Of a DNA stretch of 11,764 nt, positions 3,609 through 11,764 are shown in pieces. The stretch's first letter is position 1; each line of letters opens with the position of its first letter. The position numbers and the translations under genes are program-made. The notes beneath the pieces were generated by a model that worked only from the letters and a program-made list of their open reading frames with translations, searched no databases and was not told the origin of the DNA. The stretch is from Planctomycetales bacterium (lineage in GTDB: Bacteria; Planctomycetota; Planctomycetia; Planctomycetales; Planctomycetaceae), in NCBI GenBank assembly GCA_020050375.1, contig JAGVKR010000277.1, positions 1 through 11,764 of the forward strand, read 5' to 3'.

Positions 3609-4508
3609 TTAGAAATCTCCTATCGTTTCGCCGCCGGCACGCGTTGAGAGGGCCTGAAAAGTTGCGCGGTCGATATTTGTGGAAATGAACTGAACATGGC
3701 CATCACCGAATACAAAATGCGCTCCGCCGGTGTGCCGGCTCGAGAAATTGTTGCATTCGGTTCCCGGGGCATTCGGCCCTCCCTCGATCGTATGACCCAG
3801 CGTCATGCCGGACGCATGTTGTATGAACGGCATGACCGGTGAACCGGGAGGGGGGTAGATTCTGGCGCCCGTCACCGATCCAACCCACGTTGCTTCGCAC
3901 GTGAACTGCGTTCGTTCTCCCACCAGCAGCGTCAAACTCGATCCGTCCTGAATGTTTTTCAATCCGATGCCGCTGTTGCGGAAAAACACCCCCTCGCCGT
4001 CAATCCCCGGTTCGCTGACACCGAAGACGGCGATATAGTTGGAAGAGGCGACGTCGCAAATCGTGGCGGTCGGATTGGCGCTCGAATCACGCATCACGGC
4101 CGGCCATTTTGGCTTGACCGAGTCGGACGGGCAGAGGTAAACCGTCAGCGGTGCAATTCGAGGCGTCGCGTTGACCGGGGCTTCGATGGCTTGAGTGAAA
4201 TTGATCGTGTCTTGCAGGTTTGCCTGTTCCAGTTGAGACAAGAGCATCGCCCCCCAGCCCCAGCCCGTTCCGGTGTCGGTTCCGCTTGCATCGTAATTCG
4301 AGACATAGCCCGGCGGGAATCGGGTGAAATCCCCGTGATAATTCTGAAGAGCCAGACCAATTTGCTTCAGATTGTTTTTGCACTGCGTCCGACGCGCCGC
4401 CTCACGCGCTTGCTGCACGGCCGGCAGAATCAGGGCGACGAGGACCCCGATAATGGCGATGACGACCAACAATTCAATCAATGTGAATCCGCGAGCAACC
4501 CTTCGCAT
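3609..4508 (-). CDS. DUF1559 family protein with prepilin-type N-terminal cleavage/methylation signal
   Basis: From the ATG at 4508 the product has 299 residues. It begins with a basic leader and the type IV prepilin motif [11 protein letters not shown] (6-16), with cleavage expected after Gly7 and the conserved Glu at mature position 5. A single long hydrophobic helix follows, then [20 protein letters not shown] (35-53) and a C-terminal [14 protein letters not shown] segment. These are hallmarks of DUF1559 (SBP_bac_10-type) pseudopilins, which are hugely expanded in Planctomycetota and probably surface or secretion-apparatus associated; individual functions are unknown. The frame stays open to an ATG at 4619, but AGGAGG at 4516-4521, 7 nt before the 4508 ATG, decides for the shorter form. 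The next gene, a lipoprotein, starts immediately after its stop codon. Confidence 0.92.
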
Positions 4509-4515
4509 TCGCAAT

Positions 4516-4521
4516 CCTCCT
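4516..4521 (-). promoter_or_regulatory. Ribosome binding site fixing the DUF1559 start
   Basis: A full AGGAGG lies 7 nt upstream of the ATG at 4508. It excludes the longer reading frame starting at 4619, whose extra 37 residues include a duplicated Y-D-P-A-D-I and would bury the prepilin leader. Confidence 0.85.
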
Positions 4522-4523
4522 GA

Positions 4524-4559
4524 AATGTCGGCCGGATCATAAATGTCTGCCGGATCATA
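4524..4559. repeat. Tandem 18-bp duplication just upstream of the DUF1559 gene
   Basis: Positions 4524-4541 and 4542-4559 are two head-to-tail 18-bp copies differing at one base (4530 g versus 4548 t). They lie just upstream of the ribosome binding site of the pseudopilin gene, in its untranslated leader. The duplication may be neutral or may duplicate a regulatory site; no known operator is recognised. Confidence 0.85.
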
Positions 4560-4634
4560 CCGGTGGAGGCGATCGGAGCAAGGCTGGCGCCGTGGATTAA
4601 GCAGTTTTAATCGTGTCATCTGCGCATCACATCC

Positions 4635-6465: not shown

Positions 6466-7662
6466 CTACGGTTCCAGCGAGAGAGCGAGGATTTCGCGGG
6501 TGCCGCGCAGGTAGATGGTCCGGCCGACGACGGCCGGGTGAGACATCAGGCCGCTTTCACCGGTGAGGGGTGCCTGACGATCCAGCAGTTTGAATTCATT
6601 GGCCGTCGCGTCGATGAGCAGCAATTCGCCCGTTTCAGTCGAGGCCAGCAACCGGTCATTGCTGGCCAAAAGGCTCACGTGCGACTGAAACGCTCGATCC
6701 TTTCCCTTCCAGACCAGCTGGAGTTGATTCTCAAGGTCGAGGCAGTAGAGCTCCCCGCTGACGCCAAACAAACGGCTGCCAACGACAATTGGCGTATGCG
6801 TGTCCGGTGCAAGCTCGCTAAAGCTGGCGATCGGTTCCTTCTCGATTTGACCATCGGGACGGAAGGCGAACATACGCGTTCCGTTGTTTTCCGTCGACAC
6901 CAGCAACTGATTCTTGTAGAGGACCGGGGTCGGGACGTTGAAGTCGCCGGGAAAGGAAGGGACGATCGTCCAGAGGCGTTTGCCCGATTTTGCATCCCAG
7001 CCCCCCAGCGACACCGCGTCGTGTCCGACGATCTGCCGAGTCTTGCCAATCTCCATCGCGATGAAAGAGCCATACGCGGCGGTATTTCCCGGTGTCGACC
7101 ACAGTACTTTCCCATTCTCGGGATCGAGGGCCGCGATCGATCCATCCTCCCCGCCGGGGTTGAGGATCAGCCCCCCGTCGACGATCAGAGGGGAACCGCA
7201 AAACCCCCAGGGAAGACGTTCGGTCACGTCGAAATCGTCCCTGACGTTGATTCGCCACACGACCCGGCCGGAAACGAGCTCGACGCAGCTCATGTGTCCC
7301 ATCGCGCCTAGCAGATAGACGTGCCTGCCGAGCACGAGCGGCGTAGCGCGGGGGGCATTGCCGTAGTCGAGCTTACCGGGAGCAACATAGCGGACCGCCC
7401 ATACGTCGCGGCCGGTTTCGGCATCAAAACAGCGGAAGACATCGACGCTGTCGTTCAATTCCCGGTCGGAGACGATAACATGCTGTTTTGTTGCGGCGAT
7501 TCCCCCGAGACCGCGGGAACTCAACGACCTTTTCCAGAACACCCGCGGGGTGGCTGAAAGCCGCGACGGGAGCCCGGGGACGCGGCCATTCCGGTTTGGA
7601 CCGCGCCAGGCGGTCCATTCCTCTGTCGGCTCCGGAACAGCGATGGCGGGATCGGTCAGTTC
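6466..7662 (-). CDS. PQQ-type beta-propeller domain lacking its own start; probably the C-terminal half of a frameshifted fusion
   Basis: Codons from 7662 to the TAG at 6466-6468 encode 398 residues of a PQQ/BamB-like propeller. It opens with E-W-T-A-W-R-G-P-N-R-N-G (7620-7585), the entry motif also seen in the other two propellers here, and has blade motifs GRDVW, GRVVW, GKVLW and GKRLW. Going upstream, this frame meets a stop only at 7681-7683, and no ATG, GTG or TTG occurs between it and a GTG at 7540-7542. That GTG lies after the conserved motif and would give a truncated protein (358 residues) without a signal peptide. The simplest reading is that the domain is made as an extension of the upstream substrate-binding protein by a -1 shift at the A9-G run. 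The joined protein would have 694 residues and one Sec signal. Alternatively the indel is an error and the gene is simply one intact ORF. Confidence 0.8.
   Translation of the reverse strand, partial: ELTDPAIAVPEPTEEWTAWRGPNRNGRVPGLPSRLSATPRVFWKRSLSSRGLGGIAATKQHVIVSDRELNDSVDVFRCFDAETGRDVWAVRYVAPGKLDYGNAPRATPLVLGRHVYLLGAMGHMSCVELVSGRVVWRINVRDDFDVTERLPWGFCGSPLIVDGGLILNPGGEDGSIAALDPENGKVLWSTPGNTAAYGSFIAMEIGKTRQIVGHDAVSLGGWDAKSGKRLWTIVPSFPGDFNVPTPVLYKNQLLVSTENNGTRMFAFRPDGQIEKEPIASFSELAPDTHTPIVVGSRLFGVSGELYCLDLENQLQLVWKGKDRAFQSHVSLLASNDRLLASTETGELLLIDATANEFKLLDRQAPLTGESGLMSHPAVVGRTIYLRGTREILALSLEP
7597..7617 (-). other. Perfect 8-bp hairpin 44 nt downstream of the slippery run
   Basis: On the minus strand TGGACCGC (7617-7610) pairs with GCGGTCCA (7604-7597) around a 5-nt loop. 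A stimulatory structure for -1 frameshifting normally begins 5-9 nt after the heptamer, so this one is too distant to be a standard stimulator. It also coincides with the codons of the W-x-x-W-R-G-P motif and may be chance. Confidence 0.4.
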
Positions 7663-8549
7663 TTTTTTTTTGAAACTGCATCAGCACCGCCTGCGACGCG
7701 GCTCTCTTTCTCCGGGACGAATCCCGACTTGCTCTCGATCGCAGCGAGCAGAACAGGTTCCTCGCCGACTTGTTTGAGTGTGGCGGTTATGGCAGACCGG
7801 TCCGCATCGGAGAGCTTCGTGGAAAGGAAGGCGACGACGAACGGCACCGGCTCGGTGGTGCCGACAACCCGCAAGTCCCCCTTCTTGATCGTTCCGCAGC
7901 CTTCGAGGAGCGGCGCAGCGTAGCTGGAAATGACCGTCGCCGCGCGGACTTTGGAACCCAGCTCCAGAATCGCCGTTGCCCCGTCGCTGCAGGCGGCGCA
8001 GGTTTCGATTCTTTCCGGCGCGACGATCCCGTGCTTCTTGAGCAGGGTAAGAGCGGCGCTGTGCTTTTCGTCGCACTCGGCAGATCCGAAGATGATGCGA
8101 TAGGCTGTCAGATCGGCGACAGATGTCGCCGGATCGGTGGCAGGAACCACGATCAAGCCGGTTTGCGTCGTCTGGCCATCTTTGCCGGTGAGCGCCAGCA
8201 CCGGTTCGAGGGATAGCTTTCGATGGCGCGCCTGTGCTGCGACGACCGACCGTTTGCCGATCACAATATCGACTCGTCCGTCGGTTTCTTCGAGCGCTTT
8301 TTCGAGCGATTCATTGAAGACGACCCGAACCGCCCGCCCCAGTTCCTGTTCGAGAAACGTTCCCAGCTTGTCGTAATCACGTTGCGCGTAGCCTTTCACG
8401 CATGGGCACGAAAGAGGAGCCGCCAGTGGGTCCATGATGACGACCGTCAGCTCACTGGCGCCACCAGCCGATGCGTCGGATACCAACGAAACCATTCCGA
8501 TCACAGCGATCAGCACGATCAAGCACGCGCTCTGACGTCGGGTCAACAT
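7656..8549 (-). CDS. Periplasmic PhnD/SsuA/transferrin-type substrate-binding protein
   Basis: From the ATG at 8549 the product has 297 residues. Residues 1-28 are a Sec signal (basic start, hydrophobic core, D-A-S-A cleavage site). The rest resembles PhnD-type periplasmic binding proteins: T-V-V-I-M-D-P-L at the first strand, Y-D-K-L-G-T-F-L-E-Q-E-L-G (59-71), G-R-V-D-I-V-I-G (91-98) and D-L-T-A-Y-R-I-I-F-G (146-155). It is unusually cysteine-rich for an exported protein: C48, C50 (C-P-C), C159, C184, C187 (C-A-A-C) and C218. The ligand is unknown; no transporter genes are next to it. The ORF ends at TGA 7656-7658 right after an A9-G run, one frame from the following propeller. A longer form from the ATG at 8606 lacks a properly spaced ribosome binding site, whereas AGGGAC at 8557-8562 sits 7 nt before 8549. 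Confidence 0.82.
   Translation of the reverse strand: MLTRRQSACLIVLIAVIGMVSLVSDASAGGASELTVVIMDPLAAPLSCPCVKGYAQRDYDKLGTFLEQELGRAVRVVFNESLEKALEETDGRVDIVIGKRSVVAAQARHRKLSLEPVLALTGKDGQTTQTGLIVVPATDPATSVADLTAYRIIFGSAECDEKHSAALTLLKKHGIVAPERIETCAACSDGATAILELGSKVRAATVISSYAAPLLEGCGTIKKGDLRVVGTTEPVPFVVAFLSTKLSDADRSAITATLKQVGEEPVLLAAIESKSGFVPEKESRVAGGADAVSKKKN
7662..7671 (-). promoter_or_regulatory. A9-G slippery run with A-AAA-AAG in -1 frameshift register
   Basis: In the substrate-binding frame the codons read TCA AAA AAA AAG AAC TGA (7673-7656). The last seven bases of the run (7668-7662) form A-AAA-AAG in the X-XXY-YYZ register of the E. coli dnaX slippery heptamer. Slipping back one base gives AAA then GAA CTG ACC and enters the propeller frame, skipping the TGA. 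An AGGCGG about 18 nt upstream is a poor, too distant match to the dnaX internal Shine-Dalgarno element. The run and register are seen directly; use as a programmed site is inference. Nine A's could also give transcriptional slippage, or be a miscounted run of ten. Confidence 0.5.
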
Positions 8550-8556
8550 GGCAATT

Positions 8557-8562
8557 GTCCCT
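8557..8562 (-). promoter_or_regulatory. Ribosome binding site choosing the 8549 start of the substrate-binding protein
   Basis: AGGGAC ends 7 nt before the ATG at 8549. The alternative ATG at 8606 has AGGGA directly adjacent, which is too close to work, and would place 19 polar residues before the signal peptide. Confidence 0.65.
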
Positions 8563-8630
8563 GCTGGGATTGGGGTTGATCGAAAAGAAACGCCTGTCGA
8601 ATCCATTCCCTGGATTGGAGGGGGAGGAGG

Positions 8631-9938
8631 TCACTCGTCGACTTTTTCGGCCGCTGACTTTTCACGCGACAAGACGATGATCTGCTGGCCGGGCTGGTCG
8701 CAGAAGTAGACCTTGCTCGCGTCGGCGGAAACCGCCACGGCGACGTTCTTGCAACCTCCGGTGAGCTTCGCGCTTCCCACGAGGCCGCGGTACTTTCCGT
8801 CGGTCGTGAAACAGCGAATGATTCCCTCCGATTCCGCGGTATATACCAAGCCATCCTTACCGATCCGCAGGTTCATCGGATTGCAGCAGCCACCGAATCC
8901 GGGGGGGACGTTGGCGTCCCCCTTGGCCTTGTTTTTGCCGCCTCCGGTCAGCAGCGAGACGAGGCCCCCGCCTAAGCCTTCGGGTTGATCACCTTTTCGT
9001 CCGAAGGCGGCAATCCGCTCTCCGTCGCGACTGTAGCGCCCGACACGATGATTGCAGTTTTCGGCGACGAATAATTCGTCGCCATGCGCCTGGACATCCA
9101 TCTGACCGCAACAGCCGCGCAGCTCGGAGAGCACTTGCTTGCTCTCCTGGAATGCATGATCCATCCGCCAGACCGAGTAACCAAAGCCGGTCGATTCGCC
9201 GGTCACCACGAACAGATCCCGCTCGGTGACGGTGACGCCGTTGATGATTCGCAATCGGCTGGTAATCTGCTTCATCAGGTCTTCCACCGAGGGGATTTCG
9301 AAACCGGCGGTGATGCCGTTCAATTCGCGGAGTTGTTCTTCGAAACGGCTGATCCGACGCTTCTCAGCGGGAGTCAGCTCTTTCTTGTCCTTCTCCTTCA
9401 GCTTTTTGAGATTTTCCTCCAACTGTGCTTTCTGCTCGTCGAACTGTTTCCTGGACTCGGCAAACGACTTCTCATATAGCTTTTGCATTTCGAGGGCCCC
9501 CTCGCGAAGCTGGTCCTTGTCTTCGACGGCCTTTTTCAGATGCGGAAGCTCGATGCTTGCCAGCAACTTCCCCTCGGCGTCGAATTTCGCGAGGCGTCCG
9601 TCGCCGCCGACAAATACTGAACCATCGGGGCCAGCGCCGATCGACTGAGCGGTAAACTCGATGCGCCATGTTGCCAGTGCAGTCCCGGATTCGTCAAACA
9701 GTCGGACCTCACTGGTTGCCGGAGCCCGGCTTTCATGAATTTCGCCGTGGCCCCCCGGAGCCACGAGGGCGGCCACCTTTCCGTCGGGCAAAAGCGCCAG
9801 GGTTTGCAGTGTGGAACCGTCGCGCCCGGCAACGCGAATCTCACGCACTTGCTTGTGCGAAGCGTCGGCACCGTGACAATGCTCAAGGCCGCTCAACGCT
9901 GCCACAACCGAGACGATAACGCAAGACAGCCGAAACAT
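8631..9938 (-). CDS. Exported NHL-like beta-propeller protein with coiled-coil insertion and Cys-Cys motifs
   Basis: The product has 435 residues. An N-terminal Sec signal (about 1-24) is followed by propeller-like repeats (L-L-P-D-G-K-V-A, G-P-D-G-S-V-F-V, D-A-E-G-K-L-L). A strongly charged helical segment rich in K, E, L and Q (about 133-208) predicts a coiled coil inserted into the propeller. NHL-like repeats then resume with A-E-N-C-N-H-R-V-G-R-Y (293-302) and a series of cysteine motifs: R-G-C-C-G-Q-M-D (C276, C277), C295, G-G-C-C-N-P-M-N (C351, C352), C376, G-G-C-K-N (C396) and C413. Such repeated Cys pairs at equivalent blade positions suggest metal binding or disulfides. The ATG at 9938 has AAGGAAGG at 9945-9952, 6 nt upstream. 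The substrate-binding gene follows on the same strand 81 nt downstream of its stop, which suggests an operon and a shared role. No function can be assigned with certainty. Confidence 0.82.
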   Translation of the reverse strand: MFRLSCVIVSVVAALSGLEHCHGADASHKQVREIRVAGRDGSTLQTLALLPDGKVAALVAPGGHGEIHESRAPATSEVRLFDESGTALATWRIEFTAQSIGAGPDGSVFVGGDGRLAKFDAEGKLLASIELPHLKKAVEDKDQLREGALEMQKLYEKSFAESRKQFDEQKAQLEENLKKLKEKDKKELTPAEKRRISRFEEQLRELNGITAGFEIPSVEDLMKQITSRLRIINGVTVTERDLFVVTGESTGFGYSVWRMDHAFQESKQVLSELRGCCGQMDVQAHGDELFVAENCNHRVGRYSRDGERIAAFGRKGDQPEGLGGGLVSLLTGGGKNKAKGDANVPPGFGGCCNPMNLRIGKDGLVYTAESEGIIRCFTTDGKYRGLVGSAKLTGGCKNVAVAVSADASKVYFCDQPGQQIIVLSREKSAAEKVDE

Positions 9939-11571: not shown

Positions 11572-11764
11572 ATGCGAGCTCGCTTCACGATCGTCTGCTG
11601 TTCGATTCTTGGACTGGTTTCTCCCGCCGTGCAGGGAGGGGATTGGACCGAATTTCGCGGGCCGGGGCTGGCCTGATAAAAAGTTGGCAAAAAATCTCTG
11701 GTTGGGGTTGAAGGGAAAAGGAAAAACTGTTGCGCTCTTCGGTGTGAAAGTTTTGGATGGAACA
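11572..11764 (+). pseudogene. N-terminus of a third exported PQQ-type beta-propeller, frame broken and running off the window
   Basis: The ATG at 11572 (AGGGA 8 nt upstream) opens a signal peptide (R-A-R-F-T-I-V-C-C-S-I-L-G-L-V) followed by G-D-W-T-E-F-R-G-P-G (23-32), the entry motif of the propellers in this window. The frame then stops at TGA 11674-11676 after only 34 residues. In the +1 frame from 11672 onward, translation continues to the window end with N-L-W-L-G-L-K-G-K-G-K-T and V-L-D-G-T, which loosely follows the N-V-L-W-K-F-E-L-P-G-K-G-A-S-T pattern of the 222-1469 gene. From about 11675 the DNA also becomes A- and T-richer. So the gene is probably longer, with a frameshift or poor-quality sequence at the end. 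The true state of the gene cannot be judged from this window. Confidence 0.6.

Follow-up and report, generated by a model that had tools for sequence, protein, structure and literature searches.

The window examined here, a stretch of 11,764 nucleotides (nt) from a Planctomycetales bacterium, contains an open reading frame (ORF) for a PhnD-like substrate-binding protein (SBP) that stops just after a run of nine adenines, and a propeller of the BamB/pyrroloquinoline quinone (PQQ) type that follows in the -1 frame. Does this locus encode two proteins from one gene, and if so, which enzyme changes the frame? The draft genome to which the window belongs, as contig C429, has 845 contigs and 4.38 Mb and is 66.6% complete; we compared the window with relatives from across the planctomycetes. 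The comparison leaves us highly confident that two products are encoded by design from this one gene, in an arrangement conserved across planctomycetes, and indicates that programmed slippage of RNA polymerase on the poly-A run probably sets the choice between the SBP alone and an SBP-propeller fusion. The junction in the window consists of the following features.

7656..8606, minus strand: SBP ORF, predicted short product, matching PF12974 (E 7.6e-23), with C-terminal S-K-K-K-N
7663..7671, minus strand: A9 followed by G, candidate slippage or frameshift site, present as A8 or A9 in 70/70 frame-shifted loci (defined below)
7656..7658, minus strand: TGA ending the unshifted frame, one codon past the A-run; the stop lies at most 3.3 codons after the run in 68/70 of these loci
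6466..7680, minus strand: propeller frame (-1), BamB/PQQ-type, predicted C-terminal half of the long product, matching PF13360 (E 5.4e-26)
7681..7683, minus strand: TGA closing the propeller frame upstream of the A-run, read from the sequence
7615..7617, minus strand: first Trp codon of the W-x-x-W-R-G propeller entry motif (here W-T-A-W-R-G), conserved in relatives

The likelier start of the SBP is the ATG at 8549, which gives a protein of 297 residues with a signal-peptide-like N terminus. Its final zero-frame codons read TCA AAA AAA AAG AAC TGA, and the heptamer A-AAA-AAG sits inside the A9 run in the SBP register, in the X-XXY-YYZ arrangement. Past the TGA at 7683-7681, the propeller frame stays open through the run to 6466 (its translation reads CSFKKKELTDPAIAVPEPTEEWTAWRGP...), and a search for ATG, GTG, or TTG between this TGA and the tryptophan motif at 7617 found none. 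One added A opens 398 codons beyond the run, i.e., a 694-residue fusion from the ATG at 8549 with the predicted junction peptide ...SKKKELTDPAIAVPEPTEEW, and the frame reached by loss of one A stays open for 79 codons. These results bear out what a first-pass annotation had read from the letters of the window: that the SBP ORF stops just after A9-G (run at 7671-7663), that the -1 frame is open across the run into the propeller entry motif and has no common start codon before it, that the run holds A-AAA-AAG in the dnaX register, and that one gene could give a 694-residue fusion and a 297-residue SBP.

At E ≤ 1e-3, SBP matches were present in 22 of 99 related genomes, a count that includes the genome of the window (the match in G081 was weak and was later dropped), and at E ≤ 1e-20 in 85 of 397 genomes of the class; from a scan of named genome records, the best 80 of 169 relatives were kept. 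The comparison set comprises one genome per species. This gave 182 loci, 181 of them with an SBP (L022, whose genome is among the 22, had no SBP match in the search of loci and was dropped), and removal of exact duplicates, identical over the 150 nt before the end of the SBP match, left 129 distinct loci. The propeller lies in the -1 frame in 67, is fused in frame in 46, and lies in another frame in 3. The rest comprise one locus with an in-frame TAG, two without a propeller, eight cut by contig ends, L082 in a third register, and the fragment L179.

The 67 loci of the -1 class have, without exception, a junction run of A8 or A9. Together with L010, which meets a contig end, and with L042 and L081, in which the propeller is broken further on, they form the set of 70 frame-shifted loci, window included. 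The run is A9 in 54 and A8 in 16, never shorter or longer, which places all 70 within the range of about 8 to 11 A/T that marks a programmed slippage site at a frame junction; 62 of the runs are followed by G and 8 by C. One added A opens the propeller frame in these loci, and the frame reached by losing one A stops after a median of 4.5 codons (at most 8 in 53/70). Records with the frame-shifted form bear the names Gemmata, Rubripirellula, Rhodopirellula, Singulisphaera, Schlesneria, and Fimbriiglobus, or Planctomycetaceae, Gemmataceae, Pirellulaceae, and Singulisphaera, and the single-contig genomes G019, G049, and G071 are among those with this form. In another protein database, 108 of 120 listed short homologues have KK within three residues of the C terminus; the 120 were listed out of 1486 that reached E ≤ 1e-10 when 8000 candidates were scored, and the length window could not return full fusions. 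Homologues thus include both 46 single-ORF fusions and a conserved run with the frame change, the two outcomes that the first-pass annotation had envisaged, and its own checks thereby favour recoding. Since run and frame change are conserved together across families and occur in single-contig genomes, the base-call error that it had ranked as an equally valid explanation is excluded.

To judge from the sequences, the run is kept by selection in relatives, above chance. The 135,615 nt of SBP and propeller coding sequence of the 70 loci hold one A8+ run besides the 70 junction runs, and only 8 distinct A9+ runs occur on both strands of the window's 4.38-Mb genome. None of the 70 loci has A6 or A7, though the ribosomal heptamer needs six A's. 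At the wobble position just ahead of the AAA AAA pair, 45 of 61 four-fold codons have A, as compared to 12.2% at four-fold sites of the same genes (binomial tail 2e-28, for loci related by descent). A8 and A9 forms share the frame offset and differ at this wobble base, and the run length itself looks selected. At genome scale, the pattern A8-[G/C]-TAR is not enriched (37 sites in 12 genomes versus 79 for the reversed control), and in G071 and G086, of about 9 Mb each, the SBP-propeller junction is its sole site. The pattern A9-G-TAR has 34 sites in 119 genomes versus 22 for the reversed control, and 11 of the 30 sites fetched belong to the SBP-propeller gene.

The propeller frame lacks a common start of its own in most loci. 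From 30 nt before the run to the W motif, 60/70 loci have no ATG, GTG, or TTG in this frame, which rules out a separate propeller start there; GTG or TTG occurs in 10/70 and ATG in none, and none of the 10 has a Shine-Dalgarno-like (SD-like) 4-mer. In 14 close pairs of loci, most propeller substitutions hit the third position of codons read in the -1 frame, and the SBP is likewise third-position-biased in its own frame (13 pairs measured). By this pattern of substitution, the propeller frame is evolving as coding sequence.

How the frame is changed can be described, in our preferred reading, as slippage of RNA polymerase. Most transcripts would keep the templated nine A's and give an exported SBP that ends almost directly after the run, in KKK or KKKN. 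Stuttering of RNA polymerase at the run would produce transcripts longer by one A, or by any number of A's that exceeds a multiple of three by one; these would enter the propeller frame and yield one exported SBP-propeller fusion, of 694 residues in the window. Transcripts minus one A would also terminate early in most relatives, the window with its 79 codons being an exception. We prefer polymerase slippage because the run length appears selected, AAC stands for AAG in several loci, the run occurs in three registers, and no clear ribosomal stimulator is seen. The site of slippage in Thermus dnaX is nine A's, and selection against A/T runs is evident from nine upward in many bacteria (PMC1088944); in A/T runs, insertions predominate (PMC5574713).

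The serious rival is a programmed -1 frameshift by the ribosome at A-AAA-AAG, A-AAA-AAA, or A-AAA-AAC, similar to that of dnaX, which would give the same two products and which we regard as unlikely but worth full consideration. Such a heptamer lies in register in the window and, by the nature of the run, in every frame-shifted locus, so that ribosomal slippage is possible everywhere; the zero-frame stop is almost immediate, and with an A at the wobble position a second heptamer, overlapping the first, would arise. An insertion sequence cluster using A-AAA-AAC is a proven frameshift, with no established stimulator in the account of PMC4066793. Yet a run of at least eight A's in 70/70 loci, with the ninth A enriched, speaks against a ribosomal shift, as does the C after the run in 8/70, mostly giving AAC, which is a poor shifting codon for bacterial ribosomes (PMC4066793). 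An SD-like 4-mer lies within 20 nt upstream of the run in only 10/70 loci, so that an upstream SD-like stimulator is not a general feature. Folding gives a divided picture: 50-nt windows after the run are no better than controls (mean z -0.36 versus -0.35 to 0.11), and 80-nt windows directly after it have a mean z of -0.98, with 22% below -2, a stronger folding than in later windows (-0.50 to 0.09). For in-frame fusions that lack a run, the mean z around the same motif is -0.63. An upstream hairpin was considered and rejected, as the 80 nt before the run fold like controls (mean z -0.14).

The registers also bear on this choice. Six in-frame fusions retain an A8+ run (A10 in four, A9 in one, A8 in one), and in four of them (L037, L078, L123, and L168) one A less leads to an immediate KKK-stop. 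In a third register, that of L004 and L082, the fusion needs one A less or two more; both are draft assemblies. The run is thus found in all three registers independently of the codon frame, the third through L004 and L082. All three would be usable under slippage, whereas a -1 ribosomal shift could make the fusion from a short default in just one of them. Besides the heptamers and the 80-nt folding, several observations weigh against polymerase slippage. After loss of one A, L122 and L125, the remaining in-frame fusions with a run, have no early stop (43 and 106 codons), and the corresponding frame exceeds 25 codons in 10/70 frame-shifted loci, the window included. L004, L037, L078, L082, and L168 come from multi-contig assemblies, and thus their single-base run lengths may be wrong. 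A8, found in 16 loci, may slip only weakly, and counts across loci are not independent, since the loci share descent. On balance, the dnaX-like -1 recoding proposed in the first-pass annotation holds as to two products encoded at the A-run; its ribosomal mode is probably wrong, RNA-polymerase slippage being better supported. Phase variation, which the annotation had placed on an equal footing and in which the length of the DNA run would switch cells between SBP-only and fusion genotypes, is very improbable. The genus g39 (Gimesia-named records) does have A9 out-of-frame and A10 in-frame forms in different species, but ON and OFF forms are far from comparable in frequency: the out-of-frame register dominates (70 loci, compared with 6 A8+ loci in frame and 2 loci of the third register), and the offset is the same for A8 as for A9, the two differing at the wobble base before the run. 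Such an A-run is also short for a contingency locus. We give practically no credence to two separate genes, with re-initiation at the propeller after the SBP stop, or to a sequencing error or pseudogene. The CTG at the window's junction, the ten loci with GTG or TTG, and the draft state of the window's genome (67% complete) would fit such explanations, but they are opposed by the 60/70 loci without a common start, by the coding-like evolution of the propeller frame, and by conservation across families and in single-contig genomes.

We also placed 116 loci on a gene tree, which requires 11 changes between the frame-shifted and in-frame states, and 15 when all six states are counted; on this tree the two states have switched repeatedly. 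Being quickly built and weakly rooted, the tree does not give the direction of change (gain or loss). Thirteen of the 129 loci were left out (10 without a propeller match, plus L042, L081, and L179), and L070, L083, and L149 are short rows. Among the loci outside these two states, L020 (G093) keeps SBP and propeller in one frame, interrupted by a single TAG; it lacks both an A-run and a common start codon, and is a case of read-through or assembly error. SBP relatives without run or propeller are L023/L086, L091/L134 (contig end soon after), and L176; G054 and G244 also carry a frame-shifted copy. The SBP-only relatives (L023, L176, and L091 at a contig end) suggest that the short form may be useful alone.

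By analogy, the junction, which we call a gate, would work like tssM1 of Citrobacter rodentium, tssM3 of Yersinia pseudotuberculosis, and dnaX of Thermus thermophilus, its closest precedents, and the gene is a candidate for programmed slippage. In tssM1 and tssM3, likewise, a stop follows the poly-A run within a few bases, added A's bring back a longer envelope protein, the short form is in excess when unslipped, and a related gene has the opposite default, comparable to the planctomycete in-frame forms with a run (PMC4256274). The tssM cases differ in that tssM1 has A11, two genes are concerned, RNA and protein were demonstrated, and both forms are needed (PMC4256274); the planctomycete gate has A8-A10, is conserved across a bacterial class, connects two complete folded domains, and is known from sequence alone. 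Thermus dnaX shares the nine A's, RNA-polymerase slippage, a common N terminus of the products, and near stops in the other frames, but its unslipped product is the long one, while that of the planctomycete gene is usually short, and gene and function are others (PMC1088944 and PMC5009743). The -1 frameshift of Escherichia coli dnaX is similar in its in-register A-AAA-AAG and close zero-frame stop (PMC5009743). Unlike it, the planctomycete gate has no conserved SD-like stimulator, no clear positioned hairpin, and at least eight A's. In the literature searched, we found no SBP-propeller fusion of these two domains and no report of the gene or of slippage in Planctomycetes. The GeneTack study (PMC3711429) included two planctomycete genomes; the words phosphonate, PQQ, propeller, and Pirellula are absent from its main text, and its database may contain the gene without naming it.

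One gate is kept over several planctomycete families, with natural in-frame fusions as controls, and because of this the rules of slippage (length, following base, neighbour base, and register) become readable from evolution. Programmed slippage in cellular bacterial genes is known mostly from single genes in few species (examples are discussed in PMC4256274). Gene finders may overlook the second protein in many planctomycete genomes; our protein search returned the short SBP as stand-alone.

Similar gates occur in two further, unrelated planctomycete families. In one, A10-G-TAR separates a 3-keto-disaccharide-hydrolase/ThuA protein from an NPCBM/DUF7133/HEAT/cytochrome c half, for example at the following position.

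L222:938-5949 (G064), also L225, L226, L247, and L251: ThuA gate with EKKK- or QKKK-stop, in L226 KKKSN-stop

Thirty loci were fetched for this family. The halves are out of frame with A10 in four of them (L225, L226, L247, and L251), L226 having the opposite register; another six have an A9 or A10 no more than about 110 nt from the ThuA end and read in frame, and the remaining 20 lack an A7+ run at that place. In the other family, of 20 loci, a run of A9 or A10 before a stop separates a TIR domain from an NB-ARC/NACHT-like region in L210/L255 (G152), L256 (G119), and L257 (G270); in L271 (G039) the two are joined in frame with A9. The NB-ARC and NACHT matches are both under the Pfam cut-offs, and the L255 copy may be broken, with only 157 codons after the gate. 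The TIR and ThuA cases suggest a general device. It is conceivable, though we would not yet call it probable, that a poly-A gate (KKK-stop) recurs at planctomycete domain junctions, with polymerase slippage setting the ratio of short form to fusion in at least three unrelated families (SBP-propeller, ThuA/cytochrome, and TIR/NB-ARC). A further A9-G-TAA site, L278 (G175), is preceded by a frame of 108 codons, and addition of one A opens a frame of 133 codons beyond it. In the window's own genome, the A9+ run L187 has a loosely similar layout, with a 96-codon frame stopping 8 codons past the run and a 115-codon frame beyond; we rejected it as a second gate, as its three frames look non-coding by eye. 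L183, L188, and L190 were also rejected, since they look to lie inside or at the start of ordinary genes. The A9+ runs of this genome further include L189, L191, and one A10 run (L185/L186).

The SBP passes the curated cut-off of PF12974 (81.6 bits, cut-off 27) and stays below that of the phosphate/phosphite/phosphonate binding subfamily TIGR01098 (26 bits, cut-off 112.05). Its nearest Protein Data Bank (PDB) entries are the phosphonate-binding 5jvb (1.4e-12) and the phosphite-binding 5o2j (3.4e-5). The propeller does not reach TIGR03075 for PQQ-dependent dehydrogenases (33.6 bits versus 480.05). The two halves thus resemble PhnD-type SBPs (5jvb and 5o2j), by the PF12974 and 5jvb matches, and BamB (3prw), by the PF13360 and fold matches. 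An AlphaFold2 model of the natural in-frame fusion L078 (31 sequences) has a mean predicted local distance difference test (pLDDT) score of 87.8 and two folded domains. Because this model has a loose linker (pLDDT under 50 at 288-296), the A-run is predicted to be near a flexible joint between the domains. The 50 listed Foldseek matches comprise BamB, tetrathionate hydrolase, one quinohemoprotein alcohol dehydrogenase, and YxaL; all are propeller proteins and give no clue to the ligand.

In contrast to PhnD-type ABC systems, the planctomycete SBP has a conserved Cys-x-Cys motif and no conserved ABC partner genes nearby: no permease or ATPase gene is conserved next to it within about 4 kb in 53 loci. 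Over the same distance, the neighbour found in 47/53 loci is an NHL-type gene upstream, and no other family occurs in more than 4 loci.

8631..9938, minus strand: upstream NHL-type propeller gene, with relatives upstream of the SBP in 47/53 loci compared

This gene and the SBP gene probably form one operon. The NHL-type protein is cysteine-rich, with GCC, GGCC, and GGCK motifs; it has no family above cut-off in Pfam or NCBIfam, and a PDB search gave one weak match. Our guess from domain content is that the SBP gene product and the NHL-type protein form a ligand-binding pair in the envelope. Elsewhere in the window, another PQQ/BamB-type propeller gene (PF13360) lies at 222-1469 on the minus strand, and near the contig end, at 11572-11676 on the plus strand, is the apparent start of a further one (...GGDWTEFRGPGLA, then two stops). 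A DUF1559/SBP_bac_10 protein with a type IV pilin-like N terminus (PF07596 and PF07963) is encoded at 3609-4619 on the minus strand.

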